Positions 9,378 to 28,389 of a DNA stretch of 40,933 nt are shown here, piece after piece. Source of the stretch: an uncultured Gammaproteobacteria bacterium (lineage in GTDB: Bacteria > Pseudomonadota > Gammaproteobacteria > Pseudomonadales > Porticoccaceae). The stretch covers positions 1-40,933 of the forward strand of contig CAJXRS010000013.1 of the NCBI GenBank assembly GCA_913060555.1, written 5' to 3'. Each line of letters opens with the position of its first letter. Position 1 is the first letter of the stretch. The position numbers and the translations under genes are program-made. The notes beneath the pieces were generated by a model. It was not told the origin of the DNA. It searched no databases and was given only the letters and a program-made list of their open reading frames with translations.

Positions 9378-9393
9378 GTCCGGGGCGCTCGAC

Positions 9394-10188: not shown

Positions 10189-10196
10189 GGCGTCGA

Positions 10197-10547
10197 TCAG
10201 AGCGTGTGCGAGAAGCGATCGGCGCTGGGCATGCCCGCGAGATGGTTTTCCAGCTTGGTTACCACTTCGGCGTAGTCGGCGCCGAGCTGGATGCCGATGC
10301 CCTGGGGTCGGGAACTGCTGCCCACGGGGTTGATCCAGACGATGTGCCCGGTGAGGGGGATCTTCTCCGGCTCATCGACCAGATCGAGCAACACGAAGAC
10401 CTGATCGCCCAGGCCGTATTCCTTGTGGGTGCGAACGAACAGGCCGCCGTTCTCGATGAAGGGCATGAAGCTCGCGTGGATTTCACCGGCGTCCTTGAGG
10501 GTGAGATTGAGAATCCCGTTACGCAGGTTGCCGCCCGAGGCTCGCAT
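10197..10547 (-). CDS. pilZ: PilZ-domain protein of the type IV pilus type
   Basis: A 116-residue PilZ-domain protein between holB and tatD, the conserved position of the pilus-biogenesis PilZ. Its sequence (IENGGLFVRTHKEYGLGDQVFVLLDL, split by strands, and GHIVWINP) fits the fold. The N-terminal RxxxR c-di-GMP-binding motif is not seen, as in type IV pilus PilZ proteins that do not bind the nucleotide. The start at 10547 is taken from the domain length; only a weak GAGCGG lies before it. The frame continues upstream, but that part overlaps holB. Confidence 0.88.
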   Translation of the reverse strand: MRASGGNLRNGILNLTLKDAGEIHASFMPFIENGGLFVRTHKEYGLGDQVFVLLDLVDEPEKIPLTGHIVWINPVGSSSRPQGIGIQLGADYAEVVTKLENHLAGMPSADRFSHTL

Positions 10548-10635
10548 CGATCCGCTCTCGTTGGTTGATCGTTGACCCAAGATAGCCACCACACCGGGCG
10601 GTGGCCATCGCCAGCCTAGCACAGCGGGGCCGGAG

Positions 10636-13223
<2,588 letters not shown>

Positions 13224-13239
<16 letters not shown>

Positions 13240-14057
13240 GGCACCAGCCGGTGCAGGGCGGCGCTGATCGGCGCGACCGCGCCGATGTCGAGGTTACGCC
13301 AACCCTCGATCCGGGCTACCGGCTCGATCCCGCGCACTGCATTGCAGGCGAATGCCGCCTCTGCCGCGCACAGCTCGGAGAGCGTCATATCGGCTTCATC
13401 GAGCGTTTCACCGAGAGCGGGAAATACGGTATCCAGCAGCAGCTCGCGCAGCACGCCGCGGACGCCGTTTCCGGTCAGGGGCGGAGTCCGCCAGCCGGCC
13501 GCGCTCTTGACGAAAAAATTTCCCGATAACACTTCGACAATCCGCTGCGAGCCGTCCAGCAGGAGGCCCTCGCAACCGGGATCCAGTTCACGCGCCGCCA
13601 GCACCTGATCGAGGCGGTTGAGGTGCTTGATCCCGGCCAGCGCCGGCGCGCACGGCAAGCGGTGGGAACAGACCTGCAGCCGGAGCGGCGCCCGGGGCTC
13701 GGGCACCGGGCGGTAACCGATCACCCGGGTAGAGACCGCACCGGCATCGGCACGATAACCCTCGCCGCCACTGCCGGCGGTGACGATGAGCTTGACCACG
13801 CCCTCGCTCGGCCATAACGCCCGCGCGCGCGCCAGCTCGTCCTCGACCTGGACCTCATCCAGGGCGATGCCGAGGGTTCGCGCGCCGCGCGACAACCGCG
13901 CTCGGTGGCGCGGCCAGAGCGGCAGTTCGCCCCCGCTCAACCGCATGGTCTCGAACAGCCCCTGGCCATAGTGGAGGCCGCGATCGCCGGCCGGCACCCT
14001 GTCACACACCGCACCGTTGACCAGCCAGGGGCTGTTCACCGCGGCGCTCCGGAGCAT
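13224..14057 (-). CDS. pabC: aminodeoxychorismate lyase
   Basis: A PLP enzyme of fold type IV (277 residues) that makes p-aminobenzoate from 4-amino-4-deoxychorismate for folate synthesis. Signatures are RGLHYGQGLFETMR near residue 30, the PLP lysine in GIKHLNRLDQVLA and LSGNFFV. Branched-chain aminotransferases are the nearest alternative, but position in the fab cluster favours PabC. The gene that normally precedes it, fabF, is absent; only 97 bases separate it from acpP. Confidence 0.92.
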
Positions 14058-14112
14058 TGGATCTGGGGTTGGGAAACAGCGGCGCTAGCCACTCTGTATG
14101 GAGCGGGGGGAT

Positions 14113-14134
14113 ACCGCCGGCCCACGCCGGCGGT
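14113..14134. repeat. GC-rich hairpin in the acpP-pabC gap
   Basis: ACCGCCGGC and GCCGGCGGT form a perfect 9-bp stem with loop CCAC. It lies in the short gap where fabF would normally be. No T-run follows, so it is not a standard terminator; it may slow polymerase or protect an mRNA end. Confidence 0.65.
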
Positions 14135-14154
14135 CCGGGACGGGATGGGCGTGA

Positions 14155-14391
14155 TCAGCCCAGATTGTTTTCGATGTAATCGATCGCATCCTGCACTCTG
14201 GTCAGCTTTTCGGCGTCCTCGTCGGGAATCTCGGTATCGAATTCCTCCTCGAGGGCCATGATCAGCTCCACCGTGTCCAGCGAGTCGGCGCCGAGATCAT
14301 CGATGAAAGAGGAATCGGGCTTGACGTCCTCTTCCTTGACCCCCAGCTGCTCGGCAACCATTTTGATGACGCGCTCTTGTGTGTTGCTCAT
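14155..14391 (-). CDS. acpP: acyl carrier protein
   Basis: A 78-residue, very acidic carrier of fatty acyl intermediates. The phosphopantetheine attachment serine is Ser37 in the motif [10 protein letters not shown]. Everything matches AcpP. It lies after fabG with a 155-base gap that contains a promoter-like sequence, as expected for a highly expressed gene. A GGAG-type site precedes the ATG. Confidence 0.98.
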
Positions 14392-14490
14392 GATTAACCA
14401 TCACTCCTGTTGTGCCACATGTTATGTGAGACGGCTCCGGTCGGCGGCCTGGTGCCGTTGGAGCCAGAGCGCTCCGCGGTAACGGCGCGC

Positions 14491-14496
14491 ATTTTA
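14491..14496 (-). promoter_or_regulatory. candidate acpP -10 element
   Basis: TAAAAT on the minus strand, about 100 bases before the acpP start, in the fabG-acpP gap. The upstream -35 region (TTACGC) is a poor match. acpP commonly has its own promoter in this gap, which supports the call. Confidence 0.4.
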
Positions 14497-14546
14497 CCCA
14501 AAAACCCCTGGAGCGTAACTGCCGAGACCAGACGCGGCAGAAAACC

Positions 14547-15290
14547 TCAGCCCATATACATACCGCCGTTGATCTGAATGGTCTCCCCGGTGATATAGGC
14601 GCCGCCGTCGCCGGCCAGAAAGACCACCATGGCGGCGATCTCCTGCGGTTGACCCAGCCTGCCCAGCGGGATGCTGGCCAGCATCGCCTCCCTACCCGCC
14701 TCCGGCAACTCCCTGGTCATGTCGGTATCGATGAAGCCGGGAGCAATGGTGTTGACCGTGATCCCCCGCGAACCCAGCTCCCTGGCCAGCGAGCGCCCGA
14801 AACCCTCGACCCCCGCCTTGGTGGCCGCATAGTTGGCCTGGCCGGCATTGCCCATGGCGCCGACCACGGAGCCGATATTGATGATGCGCCCCCAGCGCGC
14901 CCGGGTCATGGGGCGCGCACAGCCCTTGCTCAACCGGTACAGCGCGCCCAGATTGGTCTCCACGACCTCATTCCACTCCGACTCCTTCATCCGCAACAAC
15001 AGGTTGTCGCGGGTAATGCCGGCGTTGTTGACCAGAATCAAGGGTGCACCAAAGTCCGCCTCGACCGCCTGAATGACGCTGGTCACCGCATCGCCGTCGC
15101 GCACGTCGAGGGCCATACCCTGCCCGCGGACACCCAGGCCATTCAGCCGCTCGGTGATGCGCTCCGCACCAGCCTGGGTGGTGGCGGTGCCGACGACGAT
15201 GGCGCCCGCCGCGCCCAGCGCGTCGGCAATGGCGGCGCCGATGCCCCGGGAAGCGCCGGTCACCAGCGCGACCTTACCCGAAATACTCAT
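14547..15290 (-). CDS. fabG: 3-oxoacyl-ACP reductase
   Basis: NADPH-dependent short-chain reductase of fatty-acid elongation, 247 residues. It shows the cofactor motif TGASRGIG near residues 11-18, NNAG, the catalytic serine (IGSVVG) and YAATKAG. The ATG at 15290 has a strong GGAGGA site about eight bases upstream; the frame extends to 15437, but that part is fabD sequence out of frame. Confidence 0.97.
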   Translation of the reverse strand: MSISGKVALVTGASRGIGAAIADALGAAGAIVVGTATTQAGAERITERLNGLGVRGQGMALDVRDGDAVTSVIQAVEADFGAPLILVNNAGITRDNLLLRMKESEWNEVVETNLGALYRLSKGCARPMTRARWGRIINIGSVVGAMGNAGQANYAATKAGVEGFGRSLARELGSRGITVNTIAPGFIDTDMTRELPEAGREAMLASIPLGRLGQPQEIAAMVVFLAGDGGAYITGETIQINGGMYMG

Positions 15291-15319
15291 ACAGGATTCC
15301 TCCAGGGTTACGCTTGCAC

Positions 15320-16261
15320 TCAGTCTGCGGCTGCTGTCAGAGCGGCCTTGAAACTGGCTTCGTCCTCGGTGGCATGGGCGGCCATCTCCGGCGCGATGCG
15401 CTTGTTGAGCCCACACAGCACCCGACCGACCCCGCATTCGATGGCGATCCCGGCACCGGCCTCGCCCAACGCCGCCACGCAGTCCACCCAGCGCACCGGG
15501 CTATGGATCTGCTCCGCCATGAGCCGGCGGATCGCCTGTGGATCGGATTCCACAGCGGCGTGGACATTGTGAATGATGGGGATGGCCGGTGCCGAAAAGC
15601 TGGTAGCGGCGATATCCGCTGCCAGGCGCTCGGCTGCAGGCTGCATCAGGGGGGTGTGAAAGGGCGCGCTCACCGGCAGGGGCAGGGCGCGTTTGGCGCC
15701 GGCGCCCTTGCAGGCCTCGATGGCGCGTTGCACCGCGGCTGCGTGACCGGCGATCACCACCTGGCCGGGGGCATTGTAATTGACCGCCTGCACCACTTCG
15801 CCCTGCGCCGCCCCGGCGCAGCAGCGCTCGACCTCGGCATCATCCAGCCCCATCACCGCGGCCATGGCGCCCACCCCGGCAGGCACTGCGTCCTGCATGT
15901 AGGCGCCGCGCTTGCGTACCAGTTCGACCGCGTCGGCAAATTCCACCACCCCGGCACAGACCAGCGCCGACCACTCGCCCAGGCTGTGTCCGGCCAGCAG
16001 CGCAGGGCGGGCACCACCCGATTCCTGCCACAGTCGCCACAACGCGACACTGGCGGTGAGCAGCAGAGGTTGGGTGCGCTCGGTCTGAGCGATATCGTCG
16101 GCGCTACCCTGCTGGCACAGCGCCCAGAGATCGTAGCCGAGTTGCCGGGAAGCCTCGGCGAAGGTCTCCAGCAACTGCGGGTAGCTGTGGGCCATATCGG
16201 ACAACATGCCGATCTTCTGTGATCCCTGGCCGGGAAAAACCAACGCAAGCCTGGTGTTCAA
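15320..16261 (-). CDS. fabD: malonyl-CoA:ACP transacylase
   Basis: Loads malonyl groups onto ACP. The 313 residues begin (M)NTRLALVFPGQGSQ, with the catalytic serine in GHSLGEW (about residue 93) and the later conserved histidine in PFHTPLM. The start is a TTG at 16261: GAGGAG lies five bases before it and no ATG fits the family N-terminus. It follows plsX directly (17 bases), so fabH, which normally lies between them, is missing. Confidence 0.96.
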   Translation of the reverse strand: MNTRLALVFPGQGSQKIGMLSDMAHSYPQLLETFAEASRQLGYDLWALCQQGSADDIAQTERTQPLLLTASVALWRLWQESGGARPALLAGHSLGEWSALVCAGVVEFADAVELVRKRGAYMQDAVPAGVGAMAAVMGLDDAEVERCCAGAAQGEVVQAVNYNAPGQVVIAGHAAAVQRAIEACKGAGAKRALPLPVSAPFHTPLMQPAAERLAADIAATSFSAPAIPIIHNVHAAVESDPQAIRRLMAEQIHSPVRWVDCVAALGEAGAGIAIECGVGRVLCGLNKRIAPEMAAHATEDEASFKAALTAAAD

Positions 16262-16277
16262 TGCGTCTCCTCGCTGA

Positions 16278-17285
16278 TCAGTCGTCGGTAGAGTGATCGG
16301 GCCGCGGCGCCGCCAACAGTCCGGCGATGCGTTCGGGCAGGCGACCACGCGCCTCTGCCAGCGCCGTGCCCAGAGCGTAGCCAAAGCCCGCGGCATCGAC
16401 GCCACCATGGCTCTTCACCACCACGCCGCGCAGGCCCAGCAAAGAGGCACCATTGTATTGGGCGGGATCGAGAAAACCGAATGCTTCCGCGAGCAGCGGC
16501 TGCGCCGCCCACTTGCGCCACGCGCCCGGAGACTCCCGCAGGCGGCGGAGCAACAGTCTGGCCAAGCCTTCGATCGACTTCAGTGCCACATTGCCGACAA
16601 AGCCGTCGCAGACCACCAGATCGGCCTGCCCCAGGAGAAGCTGGTCGCCCTCGATAAAGCCCTGATAATCCAGACTGGAGTCGGCTGCGAGCAGTGCCGC
16701 GGCCGCTTTCACCGCGCGATTGCCCTTGCCGCCCTCGGCACCGACATTGAGCAGCGCCACGCGCGGCGGGCGGTCACTGCCTCCGACCTGCAGCAAGGCG
16801 GTGCCCATGCGAGCGAATTGGTGCAGCTGCTCCGGGCCGCAGTCGACATTGGCCCCCAGGTCCAGCAGGCAGACGCGTCCGGATACTGCCGGGATCTGGG
16901 CACAGAGGGCGGGCCGCTCGATGCCCGGCAAGGTGCCCAGCACGGCCATGCCCATGGCCATCAGCGCACCCGTATTGCCGGCACTGACGCAGGCATCGGC
17001 GTTGCCCTCGGCCACCGCCTGCAACGCCCGCCACATGGAGGAGTCGCGCTTGTGACGCAGGGCGTGGGCCGGGCGGTCATCGCGCTCGACCCGCTGCGAG
17101 CACTCGACCAGCGCCAGGCGGCCACTGCGGTCATCAGACAGCGCCCGCAGCACCGCCGGCTCGCCGAACAACCGCACCCGAATGTCCGGGTGGCCGGCGA
17201 GAAAGGCGGTCACCGCAGGCGCGGTGACGGCAGGGCCGTGGTCCCCGCCCATCGCATCGACTGCGATGACCACGGCTCGGGTCAA
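16278..17285 (-). CDS. plsX: phosphate acyltransferase PlsX
   Basis: Makes acyl-phosphate from acyl-ACP for phospholipid synthesis, 335 residues. Signatures are VDAMGGDHGP near the N-terminus, SAGNTGALMA, LLDLGANVDC and DGFVGNVALKS. The start appears to be a TTG at 17285, giving the usual MTRAVVIAVDAMGGD N-terminus, only three bases after the rpmF stop. A GTG four codons later is possible. Confidence 0.96.
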   Translation of the reverse strand: MTRAVVIAVDAMGGDHGPAVTAPAVTAFLAGHPDIRVRLFGEPAVLRALSDDRSGRLALVECSQRVERDDRPAHALRHKRDSSMWRALQAVAEGNADACVSAGNTGALMAMGMAVLGTLPGIERPALCAQIPAVSGRVCLLDLGANVDCGPEQLHQFARMGTALLQVGGSDRPPRVALLNVGAEGGKGNRAVKAAAALLAADSSLDYQGFIEGDQLLLGQADLVVCDGFVGNVALKSIEGLARLLLRRLRESPGAWRKWAAQPLLAEAFGFLDPAQYNGASLLGLRGVVVKSHGGVDAAGFGYALGTALAEARGRLPERIAGLLAAPRPDHSTDD

Positions 17286-19860: not shown

Positions 19861-19936
19861 TCCGCCTTAGCTCAGTTGGTAGAGCAAATGACTGTTAATC
19901 ATTGGGTCGCTGGTTCGAGCCCAGCAGGCGGAGCCA
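19861..19936 (+). tRNA. tRNA-Asn (GUU)
   Basis: A complete 76-base tRNA with encoded CCA. The acceptor arms TCCGCCT and AGGCGGA pair, the anticodon GTT is at 19894-19896, and the T arm GGTTCGAGCC is normal. Its last 48 bases are repeated at 28084-28131, so this gene is the integration site of the element to its right and has been left intact by it. Confidence 0.97.
19889..19936 (+). repeat. attL, 48-bp direct repeat copy 1
   Basis: The 48 bases from the anticodon stem to the CCA end of tRNA-Asn are identical to 28084-28131. The identity stops on both sides (19937 T versus 28132 A). This is the attachment-site core of the element. Confidence 0.95.
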
Positions 19937-19982
19937 TAAAATCAACGGGTTAGCGGATTATCAGCCCAGACCACAGCCCACC

Positions 19983-20004
19983 GGGTCACAGATAAGTCAC
20001 AGCA
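19983..20004 (+). repeat. candidate integrase arm site, left
   Basis: Paired GTCACAG-ATAA-GTCACAG, preceded by GG and followed by CA. The same 22-base arrangement with two mismatches occurs at 27934-27955 near the right end. Position inside both attachment sites suits arm-type binding sites of the integrase or excisionase. Confidence 0.6.
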
Positions 20005-20014
20005 GGCACCGCAC

Positions 20015-20415
20015 CACGGCCAGGGACTCGGCCACCACCGGCTAGAGGCGGCAAGGCGCGCCGGCATTGCTGCGGTGCCTTGCTGGGTGCGGGAAATGTC
20101 GGACGACGACGCATACATGGCGCTTGTGACCAGCAACAGCCAGGGGGAGCTTTCGCCGCTGGAGATCGGCATGCACGCATTGCATTGCGTGGCGCTGTCG
20201 AAGGGTGGCCGCGTCAAAGGTGGCGATGGGAATAAAGGCGGGCTGTCGGAGTATGCGGGGAAGATTGGGCGCGACGAATCGTTCATTCGACAAATCCGTA
20301 AAGCCGCCGAGGTGGCGGAAAAGGTCGGAGTCAACTCCGAGCTTTCAAGCAAAACCCAGCACCTATCTGCAATCCACTCCCTGCCTGAACCCTGCTGGCA
20401 GCCGGCCATGCTGCG
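20015..20415 (+). pseudogene. ParB-like protein remnant
   Basis: A plus-strand frame with about 130 codons that resemble the middle of a phage ParB-like protein. GHHRLEAARRAGIAAVPCWV matches the ParB/sulfiredoxin-fold core, followed by LSPLEIGMHAL and a helix-turn-helix-like part (LSEYAGKIGRDESFIRQIRK). The N-terminal part, including any proper start, is missing because the frame runs into the attL region. The similarity stops at the terminator of the capsid gene. It is the only gene-like sequence on this strand of the element, so it is probably a leftover from a larger phage or an earlier insertion. Confidence 0.65.
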
Positions 20416-20418
20416 CGC

Positions 20419-20448
20419 AAAAAAAACGCCCCGCCACATGACGGAGCG
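20419..20448 (-). terminator. Rho-independent terminator after the capsid gene
   Basis: On the minus strand, CGCTCCG and CGGGGCG form a 7-bp stem (one G-T pair) with an 8-base loop, followed by eight T. It begins 25 bases after the major capsid stop and ends the element's operon. Confidence 0.8.
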
Positions 20449-20472
20449 CAGGGTGCGGGAGTATCCGCCGGG

Positions 20473-21621
20473 TTATGCCGCGGTCAGGTCGCCATACGCG
20501 ACACTCACGGGCCGGACCACCTGGAGCGCACCGCGGAGCTCTGCTCTGACAGTGACAAGATTGCGCGTGAAATCGTCGTTGACGAAGCCAACGTCGATGG
20601 TGGCGTCTTGTCTGGAGTAATACTCACCGAGCGTCGCGGTATCGAGTACCAACAGCTTGTCGGCCGGCATACTGTTGGACACCAGCACCGGGACACCCCA
20701 CAGCATTTCCCCCGTCACCTGCTGCGGGTTGCCGACGATATGTTGGCCGTCGCCCGCCACGGCGCGAATGCGCTGGATCGAGCGCCACGTTCCCGGGTTG
20801 AGAATGATCAGCGTTCCCTGCGCGTCGTTGGCCTCGAGAGCAGCCAGCGCCCGGTTTACCGACGCGATCGCATCGTCACCGCTGGTCGGCGTGAACGCGG
20901 TGAAATTCCCCACGGTCGTCAGCGTCGCGAGAATTTCCGCATCCTGGCGGACTCGCAAGCCGTGGCGCAGCCGGCTATCGAGCAGCGCGCGAAGCTGGCC
21001 CACGTCGGCCAATGCCTGAACGGATGCCTTCACGAAATGCGCGATGGTCGGCAAGCGCAGATCGACGGTCTCGAACACGATGTCGGATTCCGCCTTCGGC
21101 GCGCCTTCCGTGAATATCGCCGGGCTTCCCGCCACGGTCACCGCGGCATTGTTGGTGAATGACGTCTCCCTCACCACGGCGACGTGTCCGGTCGCGACGG
21201 CCACACGCGGCAACGCGTCGAAAATGAAGCGCCGGCGCTCAAGCCCGCCAAAAATGCCGGCCGCCGTGACGTTGTGAAACACACTGTCGTTATCGGTGAC
21301 GGTGCTCTTGCGCTCCAGCCCGATCAGGTCCGCGGCCTTCACGGTGATCTGTCCACCGTCGCGGCGGTGCTTGCCGGCAAGCGATGTCACCAGGTCGTCC
21401 TTAACGAGCGTCGCCGCCAGGTCGTCCCTGCCGGTCAGGATGCCCGGCGGCAGGCCGTCCGCGGTTTTCTGCTCCAGGCAGCGCAGCTCTTCCTTAGTGC
21501 CGTCCAGTTCGGCGCGCAGCTTGGCGATCGTTTCGGCCGTCGCGGTGGCGTGCGCTTCGATCGCGGTTTTGATCTCGCCCAGGTCGGGCGCGTTTTTCGT
21601 TTCGAGTTTGAGAGTGTTCAT
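20473..21621 (-). CDS. HK97-family major capsid protein
   Basis: A 382-residue phage major capsid protein of the HK97 fold. The first 60 residues are a charged, probably coiled-coil scaffold-like segment (EIKTAIEAHATATAETIAKL and following), normally cut off by the prohead protease. The rest has the fold's pattern, with the E-loop/N-arm region and the C-terminal A-domain signature (AGDGQHIVGNPQQVTGEMLWG, split, and VPVLVSNSMPADKLLVLD). It is full length with no frameshift. The start overlaps the protease stop (ATGA, 21618-21621), so they are translated together. No portal gene accompanies it. Confidence 0.9.
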   Translation of the reverse strand: MNTLKLETKNAPDLGEIKTAIEAHATATAETIAKLRAELDGTKEELRCLEQKTADGLPPGILTGRDDLAATLVKDDLVTSLAGKHRRDGGQITVKAADLIGLERKSTVTDNDSVFHNVTAAGIFGGLERRRFIFDALPRVAVATGHVAVVRETSFTNNAAVTVAGSPAIFTEGAPKAESDIVFETVDLRLPTIAHFVKASVQALADVGQLRALLDSRLRHGLRVRQDAEILATLTTVGNFTAFTPTSGDDAIASVNRALAALEANDAQGTLIILNPGTWRSIQRIRAVAGDGQHIVGNPQQVTGEMLWGVPVLVSNSMPADKLLVLDTATLGEYYSRQDATIDVGFVNDDFTRNLVTVRAELRGALQVVRPVSVAYGDLTAA

Positions 21622-22262
21622 TTCGAATTCCTCATGGCGGCGGTTGCCGCGGTGATGCTGGTCAGGATGGATTCAACCGCCACAGATCGAGCCTCGCGCT
21701 CGGTATCCAGTGCGCCGCGAAAACCACGGGCAACAATGCCCGCGGCCATCGCTTTGGGAAGCCCTGCATCACGCAGAATGCTTTCGACAATTCGGGGTGT
21801 GATCTCGCCGCTTTTCACACTGGACACGCGCGCCCGCGAAGCGGATGGCAGCGTCACCAGCGAAATTTCGGCAAGGTCGATCTGCTTGAGAAGCCGCCCG
21901 CCTTCGGGCAGTTCGTCGAAATCCTCAACACGGAATCCGATGCTCAGGCCGTTCAACGCTTGGTCTCGCAACAGCGCGTAGGCCTCGGCACCGCGGCGGG
22001 TTTCAAGGGTCAGCCGGCCGGTGACGCGAAGGCCGGTCGCATCTTCGCGAACGTCGGTCCAGGTTCCGATTGGCTCGGAAAGGTCGTGGCTCCACAGCAT
22101 CAGCGGCACATTGCCGGACGCGAGCGAACGGGCGAAGGCACCCGGAGCGATAACATCGCCATGGCGATCGGCGGGCGGGCCGAATACGGACGCATAGCCG
22201 CTCAGCGTGCCCGCGTTGTCACGCGAAAACTTGAGTTCGAGGGGGTTCAGATGTTCAAGCAC
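21618..22262 (-). CDS. HK97-family prohead protease
   Basis: Phage capsid maturation protease (peptidase S78) of about 214 residues. The triad can be read: His59 in LWSHDLSEPIGTW, Ser107 in NGLSIGFR and Glu132 in LAEISLVTLPS. GYASVFG and GDVIAPGAF are classic N-terminal motifs. I choose the GTG at 22262 because GAGGT lies eight bases before it and it gives the usual N-terminus; an upstream start at 22349 is possible. The protease and capsid pair should be able to form mature heads if enough partners are supplied by a helper phage. Confidence 0.88.
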   Translation of the reverse strand: MLEHLNPLELKFSRDNAGTLSGYASVFGPPADRHGDVIAPGAFARSLASGNVPLMLWSHDLSEPIGTWTDVREDATGLRVTGRLTLETRRGAEAYALLRDQALNGLSIGFRVEDFDELPEGGRLLKQIDLAEISLVTLPSASRARVSSVKSGEITPRIVESILRDAGLPKAMAAGIVARGFRGALDTEREARSVAVESILTSITAATAAMRNSK

Positions 22263-22373
22263 GGGGCATACCTCGGGCGGTGGTTGGATGGTCCAACTCT
22301 GCCCCGGTATCGCACCGGCTAGCGTCGTTCGAAGTGTCGCGGTCGGCATCGCGCCGAGTCCGCTACACCTCGA

Positions 22374-22401
22374 ATTATAGCGGGCAGAGTGTGGATCGCA
22401 A
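22374..22401 (-). promoter_or_regulatory. probable promoter of the capsid module
   Basis: A perfect TATAAT on the minus strand (22374-22379) with TTGCGA (22396-22401, four of six) 16 bases upstream. It lies in the only sizeable gap of the operon, between the small 22407-22577 gene and the prohead protease, so capsid genes may be expressed separately from the replication genes. Confidence 0.6.
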
Positions 22402-22406
22402 AGTTT

Positions 22407-22577
22407 CTAATCCGCGTCCGGCGGTAACTCGCTCATCATGATCGCCGCGTCCAAACGTCGCGCGGTTTCTTCACGCTGGCGCGCCCGTTCGGCTTGGTGT
22501 TGCCGAAACACCTCGCACGCTTCGAGCAGGTTGTGGATCTCCTCCCGAAGCGCCGGGTCGTAATGTCGCTTTGTCAT
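22407..22577 (-). CDS. small charged protein of the element
   Basis: A 56-residue protein, MTKRHYDPALREEIHNLLEA followed by a strongly charged helical part (QHQAERARQREETARRLDAA) and an acidic end. It is probably all helical or coiled coil. I do not recognise a family. GGGAG lies eight bases before the ATG, and the gene follows the 77-residue gene closely. Confidence 0.6.
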   Translation of the reverse strand: MTKRHYDPALREEIHNLLEACEVFRQHQAERARQREETARRLDAAIMMSELPPDAD

Positions 22578-22593
22578 TGCGGGTGCTCCCAAT

Positions 22594-22827
22594 TCAATTG
22601 ATGGTGATCGGTGCTTCGGGGTTGGCTTCGATATGATCGGCGATCTTGCGCAACACGATGGGCACGGCCTCGCGTCGCCCGCCTTGCGCGTGCTGAATGA
22701 TCCTCATCGCCAATTTCACAATCTCGTTCGCCACGACTTCATCGGGTACGCCAGCATCAACGGCCGCCACCATGGCGTCGGCGAGTGCGTCGGATGCTAT
22801 GAGCTCATGTTTGTTAATCGGCTTCAT
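22594..22827 (-). CDS. small unknown protein of the element
   Basis: A 77-residue, probably helical protein (MKPINKHELIASDALADAMV onwards). The start overlaps the stop of the preceding 106-residue gene (ATGA, 22824-22827), which supports it being translated. No family recognised. Confidence 0.65.
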   Translation of the reverse strand: MKPINKHELIASDALADAMVAAVDAGVPDEVVANEIVKLAMRIIQHAQGGRREAVPIVLRKIADHIEANPEAPITIN

Positions 22828-23144
22828 TTGTTTTCTCCGTGGTTGTTGCGGTTGGTGGTTGGTCTCGTGGCGTGTTCGAGCGCCGCCCGCAGATCTGGCA
22901 GGCGCGCGCGCAACGCAGCGCGGTCGCCTTTGGTCATCTCGCGCCCGTGGTACTGGCGCCAGGCATCGGCGAGGCTCCACACATACCCCGGGGCGCCAAT
23001 CAGGCCGGGCTCGTCCGGGTGCTCGATCTTGTACGCATCCCACCGGCTGACGGGATCGGGAAACGGTGCGCCGGTCAGTGCCGCGGTGATGGTGGCGCTG
23101 TACGTCGGCGCGCGGCGGCGCGGTGCGCGGGTCGTCTTGCTCAT
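22824..23144 (-). CDS. small unknown protein of the element
   Basis: A 106-residue protein with a basic N-terminus (MSKTTRAPRRRAPTYSATI) and a Trp-rich middle (SRWDAYKIEHPDEPGLIGAP, VWSLADAWRQYHGREM). AGAGGT eight bases before the ATG is made by the end of the terminase gene. Its place directly after the small terminase suggests a packaging or head role, but this is only positional. Confidence 0.65.
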   Translation of the reverse strand: MSKTTRAPRRRAPTYSATITAALTGAPFPDPVSRWDAYKIEHPDEPGLIGAPGYVWSLADAWRQYHGREMTKGDRAALRARLPDLRAALEHATRPTTNRNNHGENK

Positions 23145-23149
23145 CGGGT

Positions 23150-23482
23150 TTACCTCTTGAGTCCAGGGGGTCGTGGTGCGCCGGCCGGCGCGGATTCCAA
23201 ACCAAGCTCGCGCAGCAGTCGGGCAAAGCCGATACGCGAATCCCGCTCGATTGCCACCTCGGGGCGCGCCTTCGGCTGGCCGAACCGGTCGGTGTATGTC
23301 GTGCCGTGAACAGCGATGTGACTCCGTGCCTCTTCGGCGCGGTCCCAGGCAGTCGCAGCCAGCGCCAACAGCCGGACGTGGTGCGGCTCCATCTCATAGT
23401 CATCGACGACACTTCGAAACCATGCCGCCGCGTCGCGGCTCAGATGCCCGGGTGGCTCGGGGGTGCGTGTTTTTGCGGTCAT
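23150..23482 (-). CDS. phage small terminase subunit, P27 family
   Basis: A 110-residue protein matching the P27-type small terminase: LSRDAAAWFRSVVDDYEMEP followed by helical LLALAATAWDRAEEAR, GTTYTDRFGQPKARPEVAIE and SRIGFARLLRELGL. Small terminases choose the DNA to be packaged. The large subunit (ATPase/nuclease) normally sits next to it but is absent here, so the protein may direct a helper phage's large terminase to this element's DNA, as in known satellites. A GGAG site lies about 9 bases before the ATG. Confidence 0.82.
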   Translation of the reverse strand: MTAKTRTPEPPGHLSRDAAAWFRSVVDDYEMEPHHVRLLALAATAWDRAEEARSHIAVHGTTYTDRFGQPKARPEVAIERDSRIGFARLLRELGLESAPAGAPRPPGLKR

Positions 23483-23501
23483 GGTGTGTGTCTCCGGTTT
23501 T

Positions 23502-23639
23502 TCATTTGAACCGTGTTGGGGCGCGCAAGATTGTGGCTACCCACGCCGATCCCAGGAGCCCACCGCGGGGACTTTGAGAAAAGCCCCCGTGGCCAGGCGC
23601 CGGCTCATGCGGTCTGGCATCAAAGCGGGTGGTCATCAT
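23502..23639 (-). CDS. very small unknown protein
   Basis: A possible 45-residue protein, with two ATG codons overlapping the stop of the zinc-ribbon gene (TGATGA at 23634-23639). The C-terminus reads GLLGSAWVATILRAPTRFK. No family recognised. The overlap suggests coupling, but the frame competes with the one ending at 23620, so only one of the two may be used. Confidence 0.35.
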   Translation of the reverse strand: MMTTRFDARPHEPAPGHGGFSQSPRGGLLGSAWVATILRAPTRFK

Positions 23640-23748
23640 CGGCCAGAGCCTCGCGGTACGCTTCGTCCACCGCCGCGCGCCATTCCTCGAACGTCGGGGC
23701 TTCGAGCCGGCCCACCATGGCCCGCAGGTCCCGCGCCTCTGACAGCAA
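23620..23748 (-). CDS. very small unknown protein, TTG start
   Basis: A frame of about 42 residues ending FEEWRAAVDEAYREALADDD-HPL. It looks protein-like (amphipathic, acidic). A TTG at 23748 with GGGAG seven bases before it is the best start; an ATG at 23718 is possible. It overlaps the end of the zinc-ribbon frame, whose G/R/P-rich tail may be only the shadow of this gene. Confidence 0.4.
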   Translation of the reverse strand: MLSEARDLRAMVGRLEAPTFEEWRAAVDEAYREALADDDHPL

Positions 23749-23971
23749 TGGGTTTCTCCCGTGGTTGGTTGTGGTCTGGCACATGCTCCGGGTCGCACAG
23801 CCGACGAAACTCCAGCCGCGCCTTTGCGCCCGTCCGCACCACCGCGCCGCCAACGCTCAGCACCCAGCGGCCACAGCGGCCACAGGCCCGGCACCGCTCA
23901 AAGCGCAGCACCGCGCACCCGTGAACCTGCCTCGCCGGCAGCGTGGATCCACCGCACGGACAGGCGCTCAT
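23636..23971 (-). CDS. zinc-ribbon-like small protein
   Basis: A 111-residue frame whose first 65 residues look real: MSACPCGGSTLPARQVHGCA then FERCRACGRCGRW, giving several cysteines arranged as a zinc ribbon. The start overlaps the DUF3631 gene stop (ATGA, 23968-23971). The last 40 residues are low-complexity and overlap another small frame, so the true end is uncertain. Role unknown. Confidence 0.5.
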   Translation of the reverse strand: MSACPCGGSTLPARQVHGCAVLRFERCRACGRCGRWVLSVGGAVVRTGAKARLEFRRLCDPEHVPDHNQPREKPIAVRGAGPAGHGGPARSPDVRGMARGGGRSVPRGSGR

Positions 23972-25368
23972 GGGGTAACCCTCATGGCTGGTGTGGCGCA
24001 TACCCAACCCCTCTGCCGGCACCAGTCGCAACCATCACCGAGGCACTTGCGACAGGCGACAGTTTCTTCTGTTGCGGGTGTTGCGGATGTTGCGGATCCA
24101 TAGGGAGGTGGTCCCAGGCTTTCGTCAGGCTCTGGTGTTGCAGCTGTTTTGCATGTTGCGGATCCATAGTGGGGTGCACCTAGAGCACCTTCACCACCAC
24201 CGTGGTCTGTCACTTTGTTGGGCAGGTAGCGCACCCATGCGTCGTGAAAGTCCTCACGCTTGTATCCCCTCGGCGTTCCTGCTCCTACCCTTATCGTGGT
24301 TGGCTTAATACCGTATTTGTCCAACCTATTGGATAAGCCGCGATCACTCAGCGGTTTACCTCTCAAGTCTCCCCATGGTGACTCTTCCAGCGCTATAAGC
24401 TTGTCTAGTAGTGTCTTGGTAGGTATGCCGTCGGCGTCACCAAACACTTGTCGAATGTCGGCCAGCAGTTGAATTCCTAGGCTGGGTACACCTGCCTTAG
24501 AGTCCGCAACATGCGCAACAGCCGCAACACGCGCGGTCTCCGGCCACCTTCCGCCAGCAGCGTCGGCAACGGCCAACAGCGCCTCCCACACGTCCGCGTC
24601 ACGGTCCGCAATGCCGCTCGGCATATCCGGCCACGCGATGTTGTCGGCCGCCTGTACAGCCCATGCGGCCAGCCTGTCGCGCAGCTCGTGCCCCTCGGCG
24701 GCATGAACACGGCGTCGAAATGGCTCCACCTGCTCCGTCGGTGATCTGCGCCGCATTTTGATAATCACGGATCTCGACAAAATGGTGTCAGGCAGGCCGC
24801 CCAGCCCGGCCAGTGCGACGGCGCAGTAGGCGGGGATCTCCTCGGTCTCGACAGTCTTACCGCGCACCACACAGCGCCCAGCGACAGCGTCGCGCCGGTG
24901 TCCAGCATTCAGCAAGCCGCGAATTTCCTCATTGTCTTTTGCCTTGGGTCCGAAAACGGTATCCACTTCGTCGAAGAGAATTGTTGGCCGTCCGTCCTCG
25001 CTCCCAACCTTTCGAAACAGGTATGCCGGCGTCACGTTGACGGCCTCGACGGGTAGCGGCACCAGCAACTCAGTAACTTCAAGCGCGCGCGACTTACCGC
25101 TCCCGGGCTCTGGCGACAAAAAGGCTATGCGCGGCGTTGAGTCCCAGCGCTCCATGAAGTGGGTGTGTGCGATCCACAGCACGTGAGCAATGCCGGCGTG
25201 ATCGCTTGGGTACGCCACAAAGCGCGCGGTGAATGCCGCGACGTCGTCCAGCAGCGCCGCGCCGTCCTGGTGCTCGGTTATCAGCTGTGAGGCAGCCTGT
25301 CGCGCCGCTGGTGCGCGTTTCAACTGCTCCTCGGCCAGCCGGTCCAGGTAGTCCGCGCCGTTATCCAC
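23968..25368 (-). CDS. DUF3631-domain ATPase/helicase-like protein
   Basis: A 466-residue protein with Walker A SPEPGSGKS (residues 85-93) and Walker B ILFDEVD (about residues 130-136), followed by a DUF3631-like C-terminal region (IPTKTLLDKLIALEESPWGD, RVGAGTPRGYKREDF). Such proteins occur in phages and islands beside primase-like genes and probably act in replication as helicase-like ATPases. The start is a GTG at 25368 with GGAGG seven bases before it, overlapping the CHC2 gene by 8 bases. The tail is unusual: two near-identical 22-residue units (GAPHYGSAT and GPPPYGSAT), then a cysteine-rich ribbon (CRKCLGDGCDWCRQRGWVC). Confidence 0.82.
   Translation of the reverse strand: MDNGADYLDRLAEEQLKRAPAARQAASQLITEHQDGAALLDDVAAFTARFVAYPSDHAGIAHVLWIAHTHFMERWDSTPRIAFLSPEPGSGKSRALEVTELLVPLPVEAVNVTPAYLFRKVGSEDGRPTILFDEVDTVFGPKAKDNEEIRGLLNAGHRRDAVAGRCVVRGKTVETEEIPAYCAVALAGLGGLPDTILSRSVIIKMRRRSPTEQVEPFRRRVHAAEGHELRDRLAAWAVQAADNIAWPDMPSGIADRDADVWEALLAVADAAGGRWPETARVAAVAHVADSKAGVPSLGIQLLADIRQVFGDADGIPTKTLLDKLIALEESPWGDLRGKPLSDRGLSNRLDKYGIKPTTIRVGAGTPRGYKREDFHDAWVRYLPNKVTDHGGGEGALGAPHYGSATCKTAATPEPDESLGPPPYGSATSATPATEETVACRKCLGDGCDWCRQRGWVCATPAMRVTP
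24087..24169. repeat. 66-bp-period tandem duplication inside the DUF3631 gene
   Basis: A 17-base sequence occurs exactly twice (24087-24103 and 24153-24169), 66 bases apart. This equals 22 codons, so the duplication keeps the frame and encodes the repeated YGSAT units of the C-terminal linker. Confidence 0.75.
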
Positions 25369-25876
25369 AGCCCACCTCCGACGCAGCAGCGCGCAAGCGT
25401 CCGACAGCCTGGGCCACGCGGTCCAATGCGTCCCGCGTTAACGGTGTCCCTGCCAACAGTTGCTCGCCAGCGACAGCGACAACCAGCGCCTCGAATGCGA
25501 CGCCAGACAGCGCCTCGCGCGGGATCCAGCGCTCGCTAGGACGCAGCGGCCGCCGGTTTTCGCGTGAGCGGGGAAACAGGTCGTGAAGCCTCAGCCCGGC
25601 CGCCCCGACGATATCGGCGCCGCCGCAGCCACTCCAGCATTTCACCAGCAAGGTGCCGTCGGGCAGCTCGCGAACGCTCAGGCTCGGGCGCTTGTCGTCA
25701 TGCGCGGGACACTGCGCGATCCAGCGGTCAGCGCCGGTTTTCTTGGCTTGCTCCAGGCGCGGCAGCAGTTTTTCAATGGGCGGGATGGTGCTATGCTGCG
25801 CGTGCCAGTTGTGTTTTTTGGAAGTCCCTCGCCCCCGCGCGCCCGCCAGCGCCGGGGGTTTTGTTTGGGCGATCAT
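25361..25876 (-). CDS. CHC2 zinc-finger (primase-like) protein
   Basis: A 171-residue protein containing the zinc-binding module of DnaG-type primases: RWIAQCPAHDDKRPSLSVRE then LLVKCWSGCGGADIV, with Cys56, His59, Cys80 and Cys84 as ligands. No TOPRIM or polymerase domain follows in this frame. Paired with the DUF3631 ATPase it makes a small replication module. The first 30 residues overlap the excisionase gene end (ATGA, 25873-25876) and do not resemble the family, so the true start may be internal. Confidence 0.8.
   Translation of the reverse strand: MIAQTKPPALAGARGRGTSKKHNWHAQHSTIPPIEKLLPRLEQAKKTGADRWIAQCPAHDDKRPSLSVRELPDGTLLVKCWSGCGGADIVGAAGLRLHDLFPRSRENRRPLRPSERWIPREALSGVAFEALVVAVAGEQLLAGTPLTRDALDRVAQAVGRLRAAASEVGCG
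25832..25866 (+). terminator. terminator-like hairpin on the opposite strand
   Basis: On the plus strand CCCCCGCGC pairs with GCGCCGGGGG (one bulge) around an 8-base loop, followed by TTTTGTTT. It lies antisense to the 5' part of the CHC2 gene. All element genes are on the minus strand, so it suggests a short antisense RNA ending here. Confidence 0.5.
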
Positions 25877-26085
25877 TCCGCCAGCCCCGCCACAGCCTCC
25901 CCGACCGGATCAACGGTGCGCCGGTCGAGCCACGCATCCAGGTCGGCGCGGCGATACCGAACACCACGGCCCGCCCTCGTCCACGGGGGGCCAATGCGCA
26001 GCCCGCGCCAGCGGATCAGGGAGCGTTCACACACCCGCAAGTAGCGGGCTGCCTCGGGGGTCGTCAGGTATTCGTGCGTCTGCAT
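25873..26085 (-). CDS. excisionase/AlpA-like HTH protein
   Basis: A 70-residue DNA-binding protein of the winged-helix excisionase/AlpA type. It reads YLTTPEAARYLRVCERSLIR then RGVRYRRADLDAWLDRRTV, the classic HTH_17 pattern. In satellites such proteins activate the integrase or excision. A GAGG site lies about nine bases before the ATG and is part of an inverted repeat. Confidence 0.85.
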   Translation of the reverse strand: MQTHEYLTTPEAARYLRVCERSLIRWRGLRIGPPWTRAGRGVRYRRADLDAWLDRRTVDPVGEAVAGLAE

Positions 26086-26090
26086 TGTTT

Positions 26091-26115
26091 CGCCTCACTT
26101 TGTCACTGTGAGGCG
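26091..26115. repeat. inverted repeat before the excisionase-like gene
   Basis: CGCCTCAC and GTGAGGCG, a perfect 8-bp pair with a 9-base loop, end six bases before the ATG at 26085. One arm contains the GAGG ribosome-binding site, so folding of the mRNA would hide it. It could equally be an operator. Confidence 0.6.
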
Positions 26116-26173
26116 CAGCATTGCAGGGTCGTGGCCCGCGATGTAAGGCAATCAAATAGGGGGTTTCGTTACC

Positions 26174-26680
26174 CTAGCGACGGCGAAAGCGCAGCACGGC
26201 GTAGCGGCCCGGCTCGGTTTTTAACCGCCGAGAAACACGTTTGTACGCCGCCTCGATGGTGTGAGCGTGGCCGGTGTGGCCGTAAATTAATTCTGATACC
26301 TCGTCGTAGACATCCTTCCACGACTCCCCCAGCGCACGCCCCTCCACCACGGCCTCGTAGCGGTCGAGGTCGGCCATGTCGTCGGCGTAGCGGTGCACCC
26401 ATGTCTTATGTCCGCGCCGGCCGGTGCTGTCGCCGTGCTGGTCGCGTTTCAAGCTCTCGCGCAAGCCCTCGATGATCCACGGCGGGAGGGGCAAGGGGTG
26501 GTCGGTGCACAGCACCAGGGCGGCCTCCAGCGCGCCTAGATTGCCGTCGCGGTAGGCGCGCCGAAGCCCCTCGATCTTCGCCTCAGCCGCCTCGGCGCGG
26601 GTCTGCTCAGTGCTCCGAGTGTCCCGGTTCCAGGGGTGCTGTGGGTCGAGCGGGTAACCGTCCTCGTTACAGGCGCTCAT
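26174..26680 (-). CDS. unknown 168-residue protein next to the integrase
   Basis: A charged, mostly helical protein (EQTRAEAAEAKIEGLRRAYR, LCTDHPLPLPPWIIEGLRES, then a basic C-terminus ending AVLRFRRR). I do not recognise a family. The phrase CTDHPLPLPPWI recalls phage and island proteins found beside integrases, but this is an impression only. The start overlaps the integrase stop (26677-26680), so it is translated after the integrase. Confidence 0.7.
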   Translation of the reverse strand: MSACNEDGYPLDPQHPWNRDTRSTEQTRAEAAEAKIEGLRRAYRDGNLGALEAALVLCTDHPLPLPPWIIEGLRESLKRDQHGDSTGRRGHKTWVHRYADDMADLDRYEAVVEGRALGESWKDVYDEVSELIYGHTGHAHTIEAAYKRVSRRLKTEPGRYAVLRFRRR

Positions 26681-27909
26681 ACCGCGCCCCGGGCCAGCGC
26701 CACCACGTTGTCGCCGTCCGCCTTGCCCTCGACGATTCGCAGCAGCCGGCGCTCCCAGGCCTCCATGGCGGCGCGCTTTTCGAGCTCGTAGCGGTGCAAG
26801 TCGTAGACCGCGGCAATGCCCTTCCGTGTGTGGCCGATCGCCATCTCCGCCACCACGTCACTCACCCCAGCGGCGGCAAGCCCGGTGCGCATGGTCCGGC
26901 GCAGATCGTGCGGCCTCCAGTGCCCCCATGTGTCGGCCTCTGCGCTCCCTAGCGCCTCTGCGCACCGCCGCACCGCCTTTGCCAATGCACCCGGCCCCAG
27001 CGGCCGCCCCCGTGCGTTGAACACGTGGTCCGGGTGGCCCTTGGCCTCGTCGAGGATGGCGCGGGCGGTATCCGTCAAGGGCACGGTGTGAGCGCTCCCG
27101 GTCTTGCCCCGGCGCGCGGCGGGGATCGTCCAGCGCGGGCCGTCTATCTCGGCCCACCGCATACCGGCAACCTCGCCTGGGCGCTGTCCGGTGACAAGGA
27201 TCATCTTGAGCGCAAGCAGTGTGGCCCGGTGCACCCCTCGTGGTGGGCGCTCCAGGCACCACAGCGCGCGGATCTCGTCGGCGCTCAGCACTCGCCCCCG
27301 CTGGCGGGAGGTGAGCCCCTTTCCCAGCGTCCCGGCCTTGAGCGATGCCACAGGGCTTGCGTCGATGATTTCCCGGTCTTCAGCGTAGGAAAACAGCTGC
27401 TTCACGTAGGTGAGCAGAATGCCGGCTTGGCGTGGCCGACTCTCGGCCAGCGCTTCAAGCGGCGCGATCACGGCACGGCGGCGCACGTCGCGAATCTTCA
27501 GCTTGCCGATGGCGGGCAACAGGTGGTTGCGCAGGACGGCCTCGATCTCGCGGTGGCTTTTGCGGTCGCGCTTGGTGCGCAGAAACCGCTCGGCCACGTC
27601 CGCCACGGTGGGCTCGGCCTTTTCCTCGCGGCGCTGCTCCAGGATGTCCACGCCGCCGTCGATGTCCCGGCGCAGATCAGCGCCGCGCTTCCGGGCGGCC
27701 GTCAGGCTCCAAGTCGGGTGCTCCCCGATGGTCAACAGCCGGTCCTTGCCATCGGCGGTGATGTACCTCAGCACGAAAGCCCGCTTGCCGGCGGCAGTCA
27801 CCCGCAGGCCGAACCCCTTGGGAGCGTCCTTGTGGTCGTCGAAGACCAGCCGGCGGCCCCTCGCCGGCACCTCCAGCTTGCGGATAGCGGTATCGCTCAA
27901 AGTTGGCAT
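26677..27909 (-). CDS. tyrosine-type integrase
   Basis: A 410-residue P4-type tyrosine recombinase. It has an N-terminal arm-binding domain (DUF4102-like: GFGLRVTAAGKRAFVLRYI), a core-binding domain and the catalytic domain with Arg243 (TGQRPGEVAG), His334 and Arg337 (HDLRRTMRT), His360 (GHTRKGI) and the nucleophile Tyr369 (AAVYDLH). All catalytic residues are present. The ATG at 27909 is chosen because GAGGA lies eight bases before it; a GTG at 27924 is possible. It should carry out integration at the tRNA-Asn 3' end. Confidence 0.95.
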   Translation of the reverse strand: MPTLSDTAIRKLEVPARGRRLVFDDHKDAPKGFGLRVTAAGKRAFVLRYITADGKDRLLTIGEHPTWSLTAARKRGADLRRDIDGGVDILEQRREEKAEPTVADVAERFLRTKRDRKSHREIEAVLRNHLLPAIGKLKIRDVRRRAVIAPLEALAESRPRQAGILLTYVKQLFSYAEDREIIDASPVASLKAGTLGKGLTSRQRGRVLSADEIRALWCLERPPRGVHRATLLALKMILVTGQRPGEVAGMRWAEIDGPRWTIPAARRGKTGSAHTVPLTDTARAILDEAKGHPDHVFNARGRPLGPGALAKAVRRCAEALGSAEADTWGHWRPHDLRRTMRTGLAAAGVSDVVAEMAIGHTRKGIAAVYDLHRYELEKRAAMEAWERRLLRIVEGKADGDNVVALARGAV

Positions 27910-27933
27910 CTGACAGTTCCTCACTTGGCTTGC

Positions 27934-27955
27934 GGGTCACAGTTATGTCACAGCA
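27934..27955 (+). repeat. candidate integrase arm site, right
   Basis: Paired GTCACAG-TTAT-GTCACAG in the same orientation as 19983-20004 and with the same flanking GG and CA. It lies 24 bases before the integrase ATG and 128 bases inside attR, so it could bind the integrase and also control its gene. Confidence 0.6.
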
Positions 27956-28083
27956 TAGCTGGGTATTTCGTGGCGCGCAATGTCAGTTGGTGTCAGTGAC
28001 TATCAGGGCCAATCCAAAGTGAAAACAGGCGGTTATCGGCAAAAACGCTGTTGTGACAAGGGGTTCAGGAGGGGCGTTGCAGC

Positions 28084-28131
28084 TGACTGTTAATCATTGG
28101 GTCGCTGGTTCGAGCCCAGCAGGCGGAGCCA
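28084..28131 (+). repeat. attR, 48-bp direct repeat copy 2
   Basis: Exact copy of 19889-19936, the 3' part of tRNA-Asn including CCA. It lacks the 5' 28 bases and the promoter, so it is a partial tRNA left by integration and not a second gene. Confidence 0.95.
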
Positions 28132-28347
28132 AACAAAACAAGCAGTTACAAACGTAGCCACCTTAGACTCCCTCCCTCAGGAGTTATAGAAAAGCCTCTG
28201 TAGCGGCCCCCTGCCGCCGGCAGCACGAAAAAGGTATGTAGCGACTGCGCGAGCGTGTCCAGAACCGGCAAAATGGAGAGCAAGCCGGCCAACCCGCGCC
28301 AATACCCACCAAAGGATCAAGTTGACACTTCAGAGCTGTTGGCCTGA

Positions 28348-28389
28348 AGTTGCAATATCCCCTGCGTCAGTTGCAATACCCCCTGCGTC
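28348..28389. repeat. two 21-bp tandem repeats
   Basis: Two adjacent 21-base units (28348-28368 and 28369-28389) differ by one base. The core reads GTTGCAATAYCCCCTGCGTC. Confidence 0.8.

Follow-up and report, generated by a model that had tools for sequence, protein, structure and literature searches.

What kind of mobile element carries a phage capsid gene, a protease to mature the capsid and a small terminase subunit (TerS), and none of the other recognised parts of a phage particle? The question is raised by an element of 8,195 bp (the spacing between its two attachment, or att, repeats) integrated at tRNA-Asn in contig CAJXRS010000013.1 of an uncultured gammaproteobacterium of the family Porticoccaceae, a stretch of 40,933 nucleotides referred to here as the window and belonging to an assembly of 199 contigs that is 98% complete. 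That the element is a minimal capsid-carrying satellite, and not a one-off, is well supported because it is att-bounded, its set of genes recurs in distant bacteria, purifying selection acts on its protease and capsid and three of three congeners have no element at tRNA-Asn. Its gene content, its att boundaries, the recurrence of the set and the selection on protease and capsid are directly established, and it represents a recurrent minimal-capsid satellite type. The closest published counterparts, as far as their available descriptions go, are the satellite-plasmid PISP (PMC13230959), the Ccm protein of SaPIbov5 (PMC8569155) and the capsid-forming phage-inducible chromosomal islands (cf-PICIs; PMC10690885). 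As to its mode of transfer, on balance we favour an integrated tailed-phage satellite that would build its own head shell, supply its own DNA-recognition subunit and borrow the remainder from a helper phage. Such an element would stand midway between satellites that only remodel the helper head and satellites that make a complete one.

Head genes and boundaries of the element

All recognised genes of the element lie on the minus strand. The head module is formed by an HK97-type major capsid protein of 382 aa with an N-terminal helical (delta-like) region (20473..21621; PF05065, 8.3e-26), a prohead (head maturation) protease of the S78/HK97 type (21618..22349; PF04586, 7.1e-30; PHROG 80, 4e-48) and a TerS of the P27 type (23150..23482; PF05119, 9.9e-8; PHROG 83, 8.1e-13). 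Integration and replication are represented by a tyrosine integrase (26677..27924; PF00589, 1.2e-18; PHROG 1, 1.5e-58), a helix-turn-helix (HTH) protein resembling excisionases and regulators (25873..26085; PF12728, HTH_17, 7.7e-13; PHROG 66, 1.2e-10), a CHC2 zinc-finger primase-like protein (25361..25876; PHROG 6088, primase, 1.4e-13; PF01807 at 3.7e-4, below the cut-off) and a DUF3631 ATPase, a replication protein of the RepAM type (23968..25368; PF12307, 3.4e-61). Towards its 3' end the DUF3631 gene has two 61-nt direct repeats (75%; 24057-24183). Overlaps of four bases join the orf168 and integrase, HTH and CHC2, and protease and capsid genes, and one of eight bases joins CHC2 and DUF3631.

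Portal, large terminase subunit (TerL), connector, tail and lysis families were matched by none of the ten window genes scanned singly against Pfam and PHROGs, nor did these genes match the FtsK/SpoIIIE-type Tra family (PF01580). In a pooled Pfam scan of 17 window open reading frames (ORFs) of at least 110 aa, portal, TerL and tail families were likewise missing among the matches listed, which covered 25 of 26 families, the 26th being a single member with an E value between 3.7e-4 and 1e-3. No tape-measure gene was found in the element. The original prediction, made from the letters of the window, had named the same seven genes, tightly packed with overlaps on one strand, and had pointed out that TerL, portal, connector, tail and lysis genes are missing; the matches and coordinates agree with it on both counts. 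Its inventory had passed over orf168, three small ORFs that separate TerS from protease, and about 0.5 kb of DNA from the capsid gene to the left att repeat.

The ends of the element are equally well defined. The tRNA-Asn gene (GTT anticodon; 19861..19936, plus strand, called by ARAGORN) stays intact, and its 3' part constitutes the left att repeat (19889..19936), of which an exact 48-nt copy lies at 28084..28131; the earlier claim of an element integrated in tRNA-Asn is borne out by the tRNA call and this pair. Around the att core a longer direct repeat of 58 nt is 93% identical between 19884-19941 and 28079-28136. A 23-nt subterminal repeat just inside the left end (19982..20004) has a second copy, 91% identical, just inside the right end (27933..27955), and the pair plausibly represents integrase arm sites. 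A full prophage at the same site in relatives, which would have spoken against a satellite, was looked for and not seen: the tRNA-Asn genes of three congeners (G062, G063 and G064; n=3, the contigs of L190 and L192 stopping 2.2-2.3 kb past the tRNA) each have a single att match, and no integrase-like gene was noticed by eye beside them among the listed open frames. The conserved flank of this site was seen on the rluC side only (G064), and hisA does not adjoin tRNA-Asn in two congeners approached from hisA.

The remaining frames of the element are of unassigned function. Among them, orf168 (26174..26680, minus strand) has no Pfam or PHROG match and shares a 28% identical stretch with a related element, L214 (tblastn, 4e-7). 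Between TerS and protease lie, also on the minus strand, orf106 (22824..23144; no Pfam or PHROG match), orf77 (22594..22827, taken from the sequence directly; 22597-22824 without PHROG match) and orf61 (22407..22592, with a TTG start as listed), whose tblastn homologues stand immediately ahead of the protease in L214 (58% identical) and L215 (54%). No gene was identified in the segment of about 0.5 kb from the capsid gene to the att repeat (19937..20472), since the ORFs tested there have no Pfam match and the plus-strand one has no PHROG match either. An open frame of 181 aa (20075-20620, plus strand) runs antisense to the end of the capsid gene, with no Pfam or PHROG match, and immediately beyond the element there is a 21-nt tandem repeat in two copies (28348-28389).

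Recurrence of the cut-down set and its published counterparts

The original prediction had proposed a search for the same gene set at tRNA sites elsewhere, and the cut-down set has indeed been found in other bounded elements of distant bacteria. Loci were sorted by local profiles according to the genes at most 7 kb from DUF3631 on the same strand. Among 56 loci from viral contigs, the full trio of capsid, TerL and portal is present in 15, capsid with either TerL or portal in 8, capsid alone in 6, TerL or portal in the absence of capsid in 7, and no gene of the three in 20; the corresponding figures for 80 loci from genome contigs are 1, 0, 7, 2 and 70, and in genomes of the class to which the window belongs two loci of 12 have capsid only (one broken) and ten have none, all of this to be read bearing in mind that incomplete contigs can imitate the capsid-only state. 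By local hidden Markov models 16 loci, the window included, are capsid-only, and nine of them (the window and eight others, six of these with att or terminal repeats) were taken to Pfam; outside this test stand L021 (broken), L031, L039 (weak repeat), L047, L049, L146 (open contigs) and L062. In the 143 ORFs of the nine elements Pfam recognised DUF3631, capsid and integrase in every element, protease in five and TerS by PF05119 in two and Terminase_7 in one; portal and TerL were absent from all nine among the matches listed. Five fuller relatives gave capsid, portal and TerL in 5/5 each, in a control that covered 53 of 93 ORFs, those of the minus strand and one or more of the plus strand having been dropped.

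A second test covered 14 viral-contig records, nine minimal (L214, L215, L222, L223, L159, L161, L166, L141 and L116, the window not being among them) and five fuller ones. The TerL nuclease PF20441 was found in 0/9 minimal versus 5/5 fuller records, the portal PF04860 in 0/9 versus 4/5 and the SPP1 portal in 0/9 versus 1/5, and PF03237 gave 0/9 in the minimal set and two of five, below the cut-off, in the fuller one. Virus records may be fragments, and in L214, L215, L222 and L223 portal and TerL were looked for, and not found, with the local profiles and with four families of Pfam only. Boundaries similar to those of the window are seen in L035 (Parvularculaceae; 45-nt repeat at tRNA-Asn), L045 (Nanopelagicales; 29 nt, tRNA-Val), L050 (Mycobacterium asiaticum; 26 nt, tRNA-Arg), L214 (51 nt, tRNA-Met) and L222 (51 nt, tRNA-Arg), and as imperfect repeats in L116 (42 nt, tRNA-Leu) and L141 (37 nt, tRNA-Ser). 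Terminal repeats of the kind seen in circular contigs are present in L166 (119 nt) and L223 (127 nt), and no att or terminal repeats were found in L159 and L161. The ten repeat-bounded minimal elements, window included, measure 8.2-10.9 kb and the fuller elements L041, L127 and L128 10.1-10.9 kb, a narrow range that may be partly methodological, the repeat search distance and the locus lengths being limited. The named hosts of minimal elements belong to Pseudomonadota and Actinomycetota, and the presence of the set in bounded elements of both suggests an under-counted class of mobile DNA, which tools demanding fuller gene sets may miss.

The closest late module surfaced through a scan with the protease, which is 76% identical in L214 and 71% in L215; both share with the window TerS, an orf61 homologue, protease and capsid (about 40%), and the order TerS-orf61-protease-capsid is common to the window and L214. 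Since L214 has the same late set at another tRNA gene (tRNA-Met) and is without DUF3631 by local profile, these late genes would appear to travel together as one block. No search identified the replication protein of L214 (an ORF of 792 aa), and the scan with the window integrase returned distant matches only (32% and 28%).

Other loci vary the late cargo. A tape-measure protein is encoded in three capsid-carrying, repeat-ended elements (L035:13282-15123, L050:14071-16476 and L223:6651-10010), no further tail gene being recognised there, and together with TerS, and no capsid by local profile, in L137:8432-11290, L149:14741-18712 and L051:7805-9481. Tape-measure genes encoded by satellites appear also in the available part of a published study (Extended Data Fig. 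10 of PMC12987554). Downstream of the capsid gene of L159 a homologue of a tail assembly protein was found (8870-9463; PHROG 32, 3e-61), which may be flanking prophage DNA, the right boundary being undefined. L062 has a 49-nt repeat at tRNA-Thr (6795-17272) and a weak plus-strand capsid call (12761-13861) without PDB match; its Pfam scan covered minus-strand ORFs only.

With respect to known systems, a classical phage-inducible chromosomal island (PICI) is an att-bounded integrase element with AlpA/HTH, a primase-like gene and TerS, and all these slots are filled in the window, but with a CHC2 and DUF3631 pair for replication, and its membership is possible rather than established. Portal, TerL and tail genes, which would mark a complete or decaying prophage, were not detected. 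To our knowledge, SaPIbov5 has neither portal nor TerL. Like the window, it is a satellite with an HK97-fold capsid homologue (Ccm); unlike the window, it is of the cos type, no protease is identified in its available description and Ccm is mixed into capsids with the helper capsid protein (PMC8569155). The cf-PICIs share with the window their own capsid, protease and TerS, and differ in encoding also portal, connectors, TerL and HNH, that is, all head parts, so that the helper is needed only for tails (PMC10690885). The original statement that the known capsid-forming type has a fuller head set agrees with this description: of the cf-PICI head genes, the window has capsid (PF05065) and protease (PF04586), and no portal, connectors or TerL. 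The original reading stands as far as a minimal capsid-carrying satellite is concerned, on the strength of att repeats, recurrence, selection and congeners; the element is not a cf-PICI in the published sense.

More similar in late gene content is PISP (TG93), an 11.1-kb satellite-plasmid of Vibrio crassostreae, which has capsid, head maturation protease and TerS together with a MerR-like regulator, no portal or TerL being mentioned in the available portion of its report (PMC13230959). It differs from the window in being extrachromosomal, with ParA/RepA maintenance, a PF03864 (capsid E) capsid and no integrase detected (PMC13230959); the window combines the same three functions, again with no portal or TerL, with an integrase and a PF05065 capsid and without plasmid maintenance. 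By the same account, Vibrio was the only genus in which the authors found elements related to PISP, SatelliteFinder did not flag PISP and the capsid tree comprised 356 PF03864-type capsids from published PICIs (PMC13230959). Finally, the full-head DUF3631 elements L041, L118, L125, L127 and L128 (contigs or elements of about 9.7-11 kb) resemble the window in integrase, DUF3631 and PF05065 capsid (5/5), in protease (5/5 by local profile, 3 by Pfam) and partly in CHC2 (3/5 by local profile), and differ from it in having portal and TerL and in capsids that fall elsewhere in the tree. Among open-licence papers, no DUF3631 satellite with a capsid was found in titles and abstract openings.

Selection and descent of protease and capsid

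Protease and capsid are kept as proteins under purifying selection. Ratios of non-synonymous to synonymous substitution rates (dN/dS; Nei-Gojobori, on trimmed genes unless stated) of the protease are 0.17 between window and L214, 0.12 between window and L215 (dS 1.2-1.8) and 0.20 between L214 and L215, and the L159-L222 pair gives 0.05 on an untrimmed stop-to-stop frame with some upstream codons. For the capsid, the values are 0.11 (L214-L215), 0.08 (L159-L222) and 0.15 (both L159-L223 and L222-L223). A separate calculation gives dN/dS of 0.21/1.22 for the protease and 0.54/1.56 for the capsid between L159 and L161, and a dS close to or at saturation for L116/L141. In the compared pairs no internal stops were counted. 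Relaxed selection on the capsid, named beforehand as an outcome that would contradict the satellite, was looked for and not found, close pairs ranging from 0.08 to 0.20 over both genes.

The capsid protein is complete, and its structure model has a helix at residues 14-55, a low-confidence stretch at 55-129 and a core from about 130. The core matched the capsids of phiXacJX1, D3 and HK97 in the PDB (Foldseek), and a profile of 12 aligned capsids matched HK97 gp5 at 2.5e-53. In HK97, capsid and protease suffice for proheads, with which the PDB title 'HK97 Prohead I with protease' is consistent. The accessible text of PMC8569155 also gives as the HK97 pattern a delta region at the N terminus that serves as scaffold. 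In the capsid tree, the window groups with L214, L215, L159, L161, L222, L223 and L220 (support 97/98; 100/99 in an earlier tree with fewer rows), and all seven partners lie on contigs without detected portal or TerL, L220 (4.8 kb) and L215 (5.2 kb) being short fragments. Outside this group fall 16 capsids of phages, prophages, one viral contig and plasmids, picked mainly from the top-listed matches; no phage, prophage or plasmid capsid found exceeds about 36% identity to that of the window. The branch of the window capsid is long (1.24) and long-branch effects are possible. Close copies by capsid were seen in one of 112 family genomes, the window's own, and none by capsid patterns in the genome_contigs collection; when the capsids of L161 and L116 served as queries, their own contigs were the only matches.

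Proposed helper use, rival readings and the replication chassis

A transfer cycle can be proposed from the gene content. Upon arrival of a helper phage, integrase and HTH protein would excise the element at tRNA-Asn, and the CHC2 and DUF3631 (RepAM-type) proteins would replicate the excised form. The capsid protein of 382 aa, which has a helical N-terminal domain of its own, would assemble round the helper portal, the element's own protease would mature the shell, TerS would bring element DNA to the helper TerL, redirecting the helper terminase, and helper neck and tail would finish the particle. We infer helper use, packaging and particle structure in this manner, and own shell, protease and TerS would be the parts that fix shell composition and DNA choice. 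Such a set predicts a foreign shell around a helper portal, which bears on the specificity of the fit between portal and shell.

Several observations weigh against this reading. The element is known here from sequence alone, and a search of its own genome (G000) for just two helper families gave no PF04860 portal and no PF03354 TerL. The structure model of the capsid is weak (mean predicted local distance difference test score, pLDDT, of 61.7). The dN/dS of the window capsid is higher than those of the close pairs, with 0.47 against L214 and 0.45 against L215 at near-saturated dS (about 1.4), and 0.88/1.24 against L159 and 0.84/1.62 against L161 (about 0.5-0.7), also near saturation. The protease tree gives no support to the grouping seen with the capsid, the position of the window in it being unsupported, and the minimal capsids of L116 and L141 pair together elsewhere in the capsid tree, so that capsids have been acquired more than once. 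In the relative L021 (G196, contig 142), DUF3631 and capsid are each spread over two frames, the protease being open; hence decay does occur among relatives. Finally, four of the nine Pfam-tested minimal elements have no Pfam-recognised protease, and therefore not all of them need build a self-sufficient shell.

This last point leads to the strongest rival, an unlikely reading that nevertheless deserves serious weight, in which the capsid protein would co-assemble with the helper capsid and alter head size or shape as Ccm does, the element's protease trimming its own protein because that of the helper misfits, and no separate shell being made. In fact, Ccm has the HK97 fold, is homologous to the capsid protein of the helper and is described as the sole SaPIbov5 protein needed for redirecting assembly, and its element, with no protease identified in the available account (PMC8569155), resembles the four minimal elements in which no protease was recognised, which may be Ccm-like. 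The authors of PISP also propose size redirection for a capsid-protease-TerS set in the part of their report at hand (PMC13230959). On the other hand, the window protease adjoins the capsid gene, and the low identity to the capsids found lowers the chance of mixed lattices, except with an unknown phage as helper. The absence of an identified protease in SaPIbov5 makes a matched protease point to a self-made shell over a mixed one.

Improbable is a role in host defence, with capsid, protease and TerS mainly disrupting the head assembly of an incoming phage and transfer being secondary. Assembly-blocking systems are known (PMC10884400 and PMC11364771, as far as their available text goes) and L116 carries a defence-type gene of the OLD family; TerS, integrase, replication genes and att ends nevertheless suit transfer, and protease and capsid are retained together on differing chassis. 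The gene in question (AAA_15 and OLD-like TOPRIM; L116:12332-14251) lies within the att-bounded element and is probably defence cargo. Still more doubtful is a shell used without helper tail, as in a gene-transfer-agent-like or encapsulin-like particle: HK97-fold shells are known in such particles, and the structure search lists a gene-transfer-agent capsid and a Pyrococcus virus-like particle lower down, but TerS is meaningful only with TerL and portal, neither of which was detected. A prophage remnant with portal, TerL and tail deleted is the least credible reading and is disfavoured, since its ordinary HK97-type capsid and the broken relatives found within the window's class (two genomes: L021 and L023 in G196, L034 in G423) stand against the same cut-down set in nine elements, whose named hosts are Pseudomonadota and Actinomycetota and most of which are att-bounded, the near absence of DUF3631 from phage records, purifying selection, a capsid clade without phages and three congeners in which no prophage was seen at the site.

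The replication gene is of a family known from AICEs (actinomycete integrative and conjugative elements), which integrate at tRNA genes. DUF3631 serves actinobacterial AICEs as the replication initiator RepAM, and the RepAM-type AICEs share tyrosine integrase and RepAM with the window; in the available description they conjugate by means of an FtsK/SpoIIIE-type Tra (PMC3218068), instead of which the window has packaging and head genes. The 352-aa core of the window DUF3631 matched 2 of 50,697 phage records and 3 of 72,556 plasmid records, and relatives are encoded by at least 529 of 589 pattern-matched stretches in genome_contigs and, among the viral contigs, by 57 of 125. Of the 80 genome_contigs loci, many belong to Streptomyces and have DUF3631, HTH and integrase. 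Within an AICE-type gene test covering L063 and L054 only, FtsK/SpoIIIE was found in L063 (the actinobacterium Yinghuangia; 1.9e-9) and, weakly and below the cut-off, in the Streptomyces locus L054, which also has Prim-Pol, in keeping with what AICEs should carry. The occurrence of DUF3631 with FtsK/SpoIIIE in some loci and with head genes in others indicates one chassis with conjugation-type or phage-head cargo, and ties packaging-based to conjugation-based transfer. In a DUF3631 tree of 52 rows out of 149 loci, most Streptomyces-type loci being left out, the full-head (19 rows) and capsid-only (14 rows) labels need at least seven changes, which means that repeated changes of head set took place on a single chassis. 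The capsid-only label shows hardly any clustering (11 changes versus a shuffled mean of 12.5).

From these data a broader class can tentatively be drawn, which we regard as possible and somewhat less likely than its opposite: a large, cross-phylum class of satellites with an AICE-like integrase-RepAM (or other replication) chassis, which would swap in only what determines particle geometry and DNA choice, namely shell and protease, TerS and sometimes a tape measure, and would rely on the helper for motor, portal, neck and tail tube, with the window element as the form that has a head ruler only. Genome G196 encodes DUF3631 matches three more times, spread over two contigs besides that of L021. 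Of the two matching phage records, Phipami28 (L194; PV029746.1, 25482-38510) has chromosomal-type genes near DUF3631; its DUF3631 is 67% identical to that of L159, and the record may include Pseudomonas chromosome. L162 (6370-9848) is a DUF3631 element with a different head set comprising a scaffold-like protein, a Gp13-like capsid, TerS and TerL, the same capsid and TerL being found by local profile in L142.

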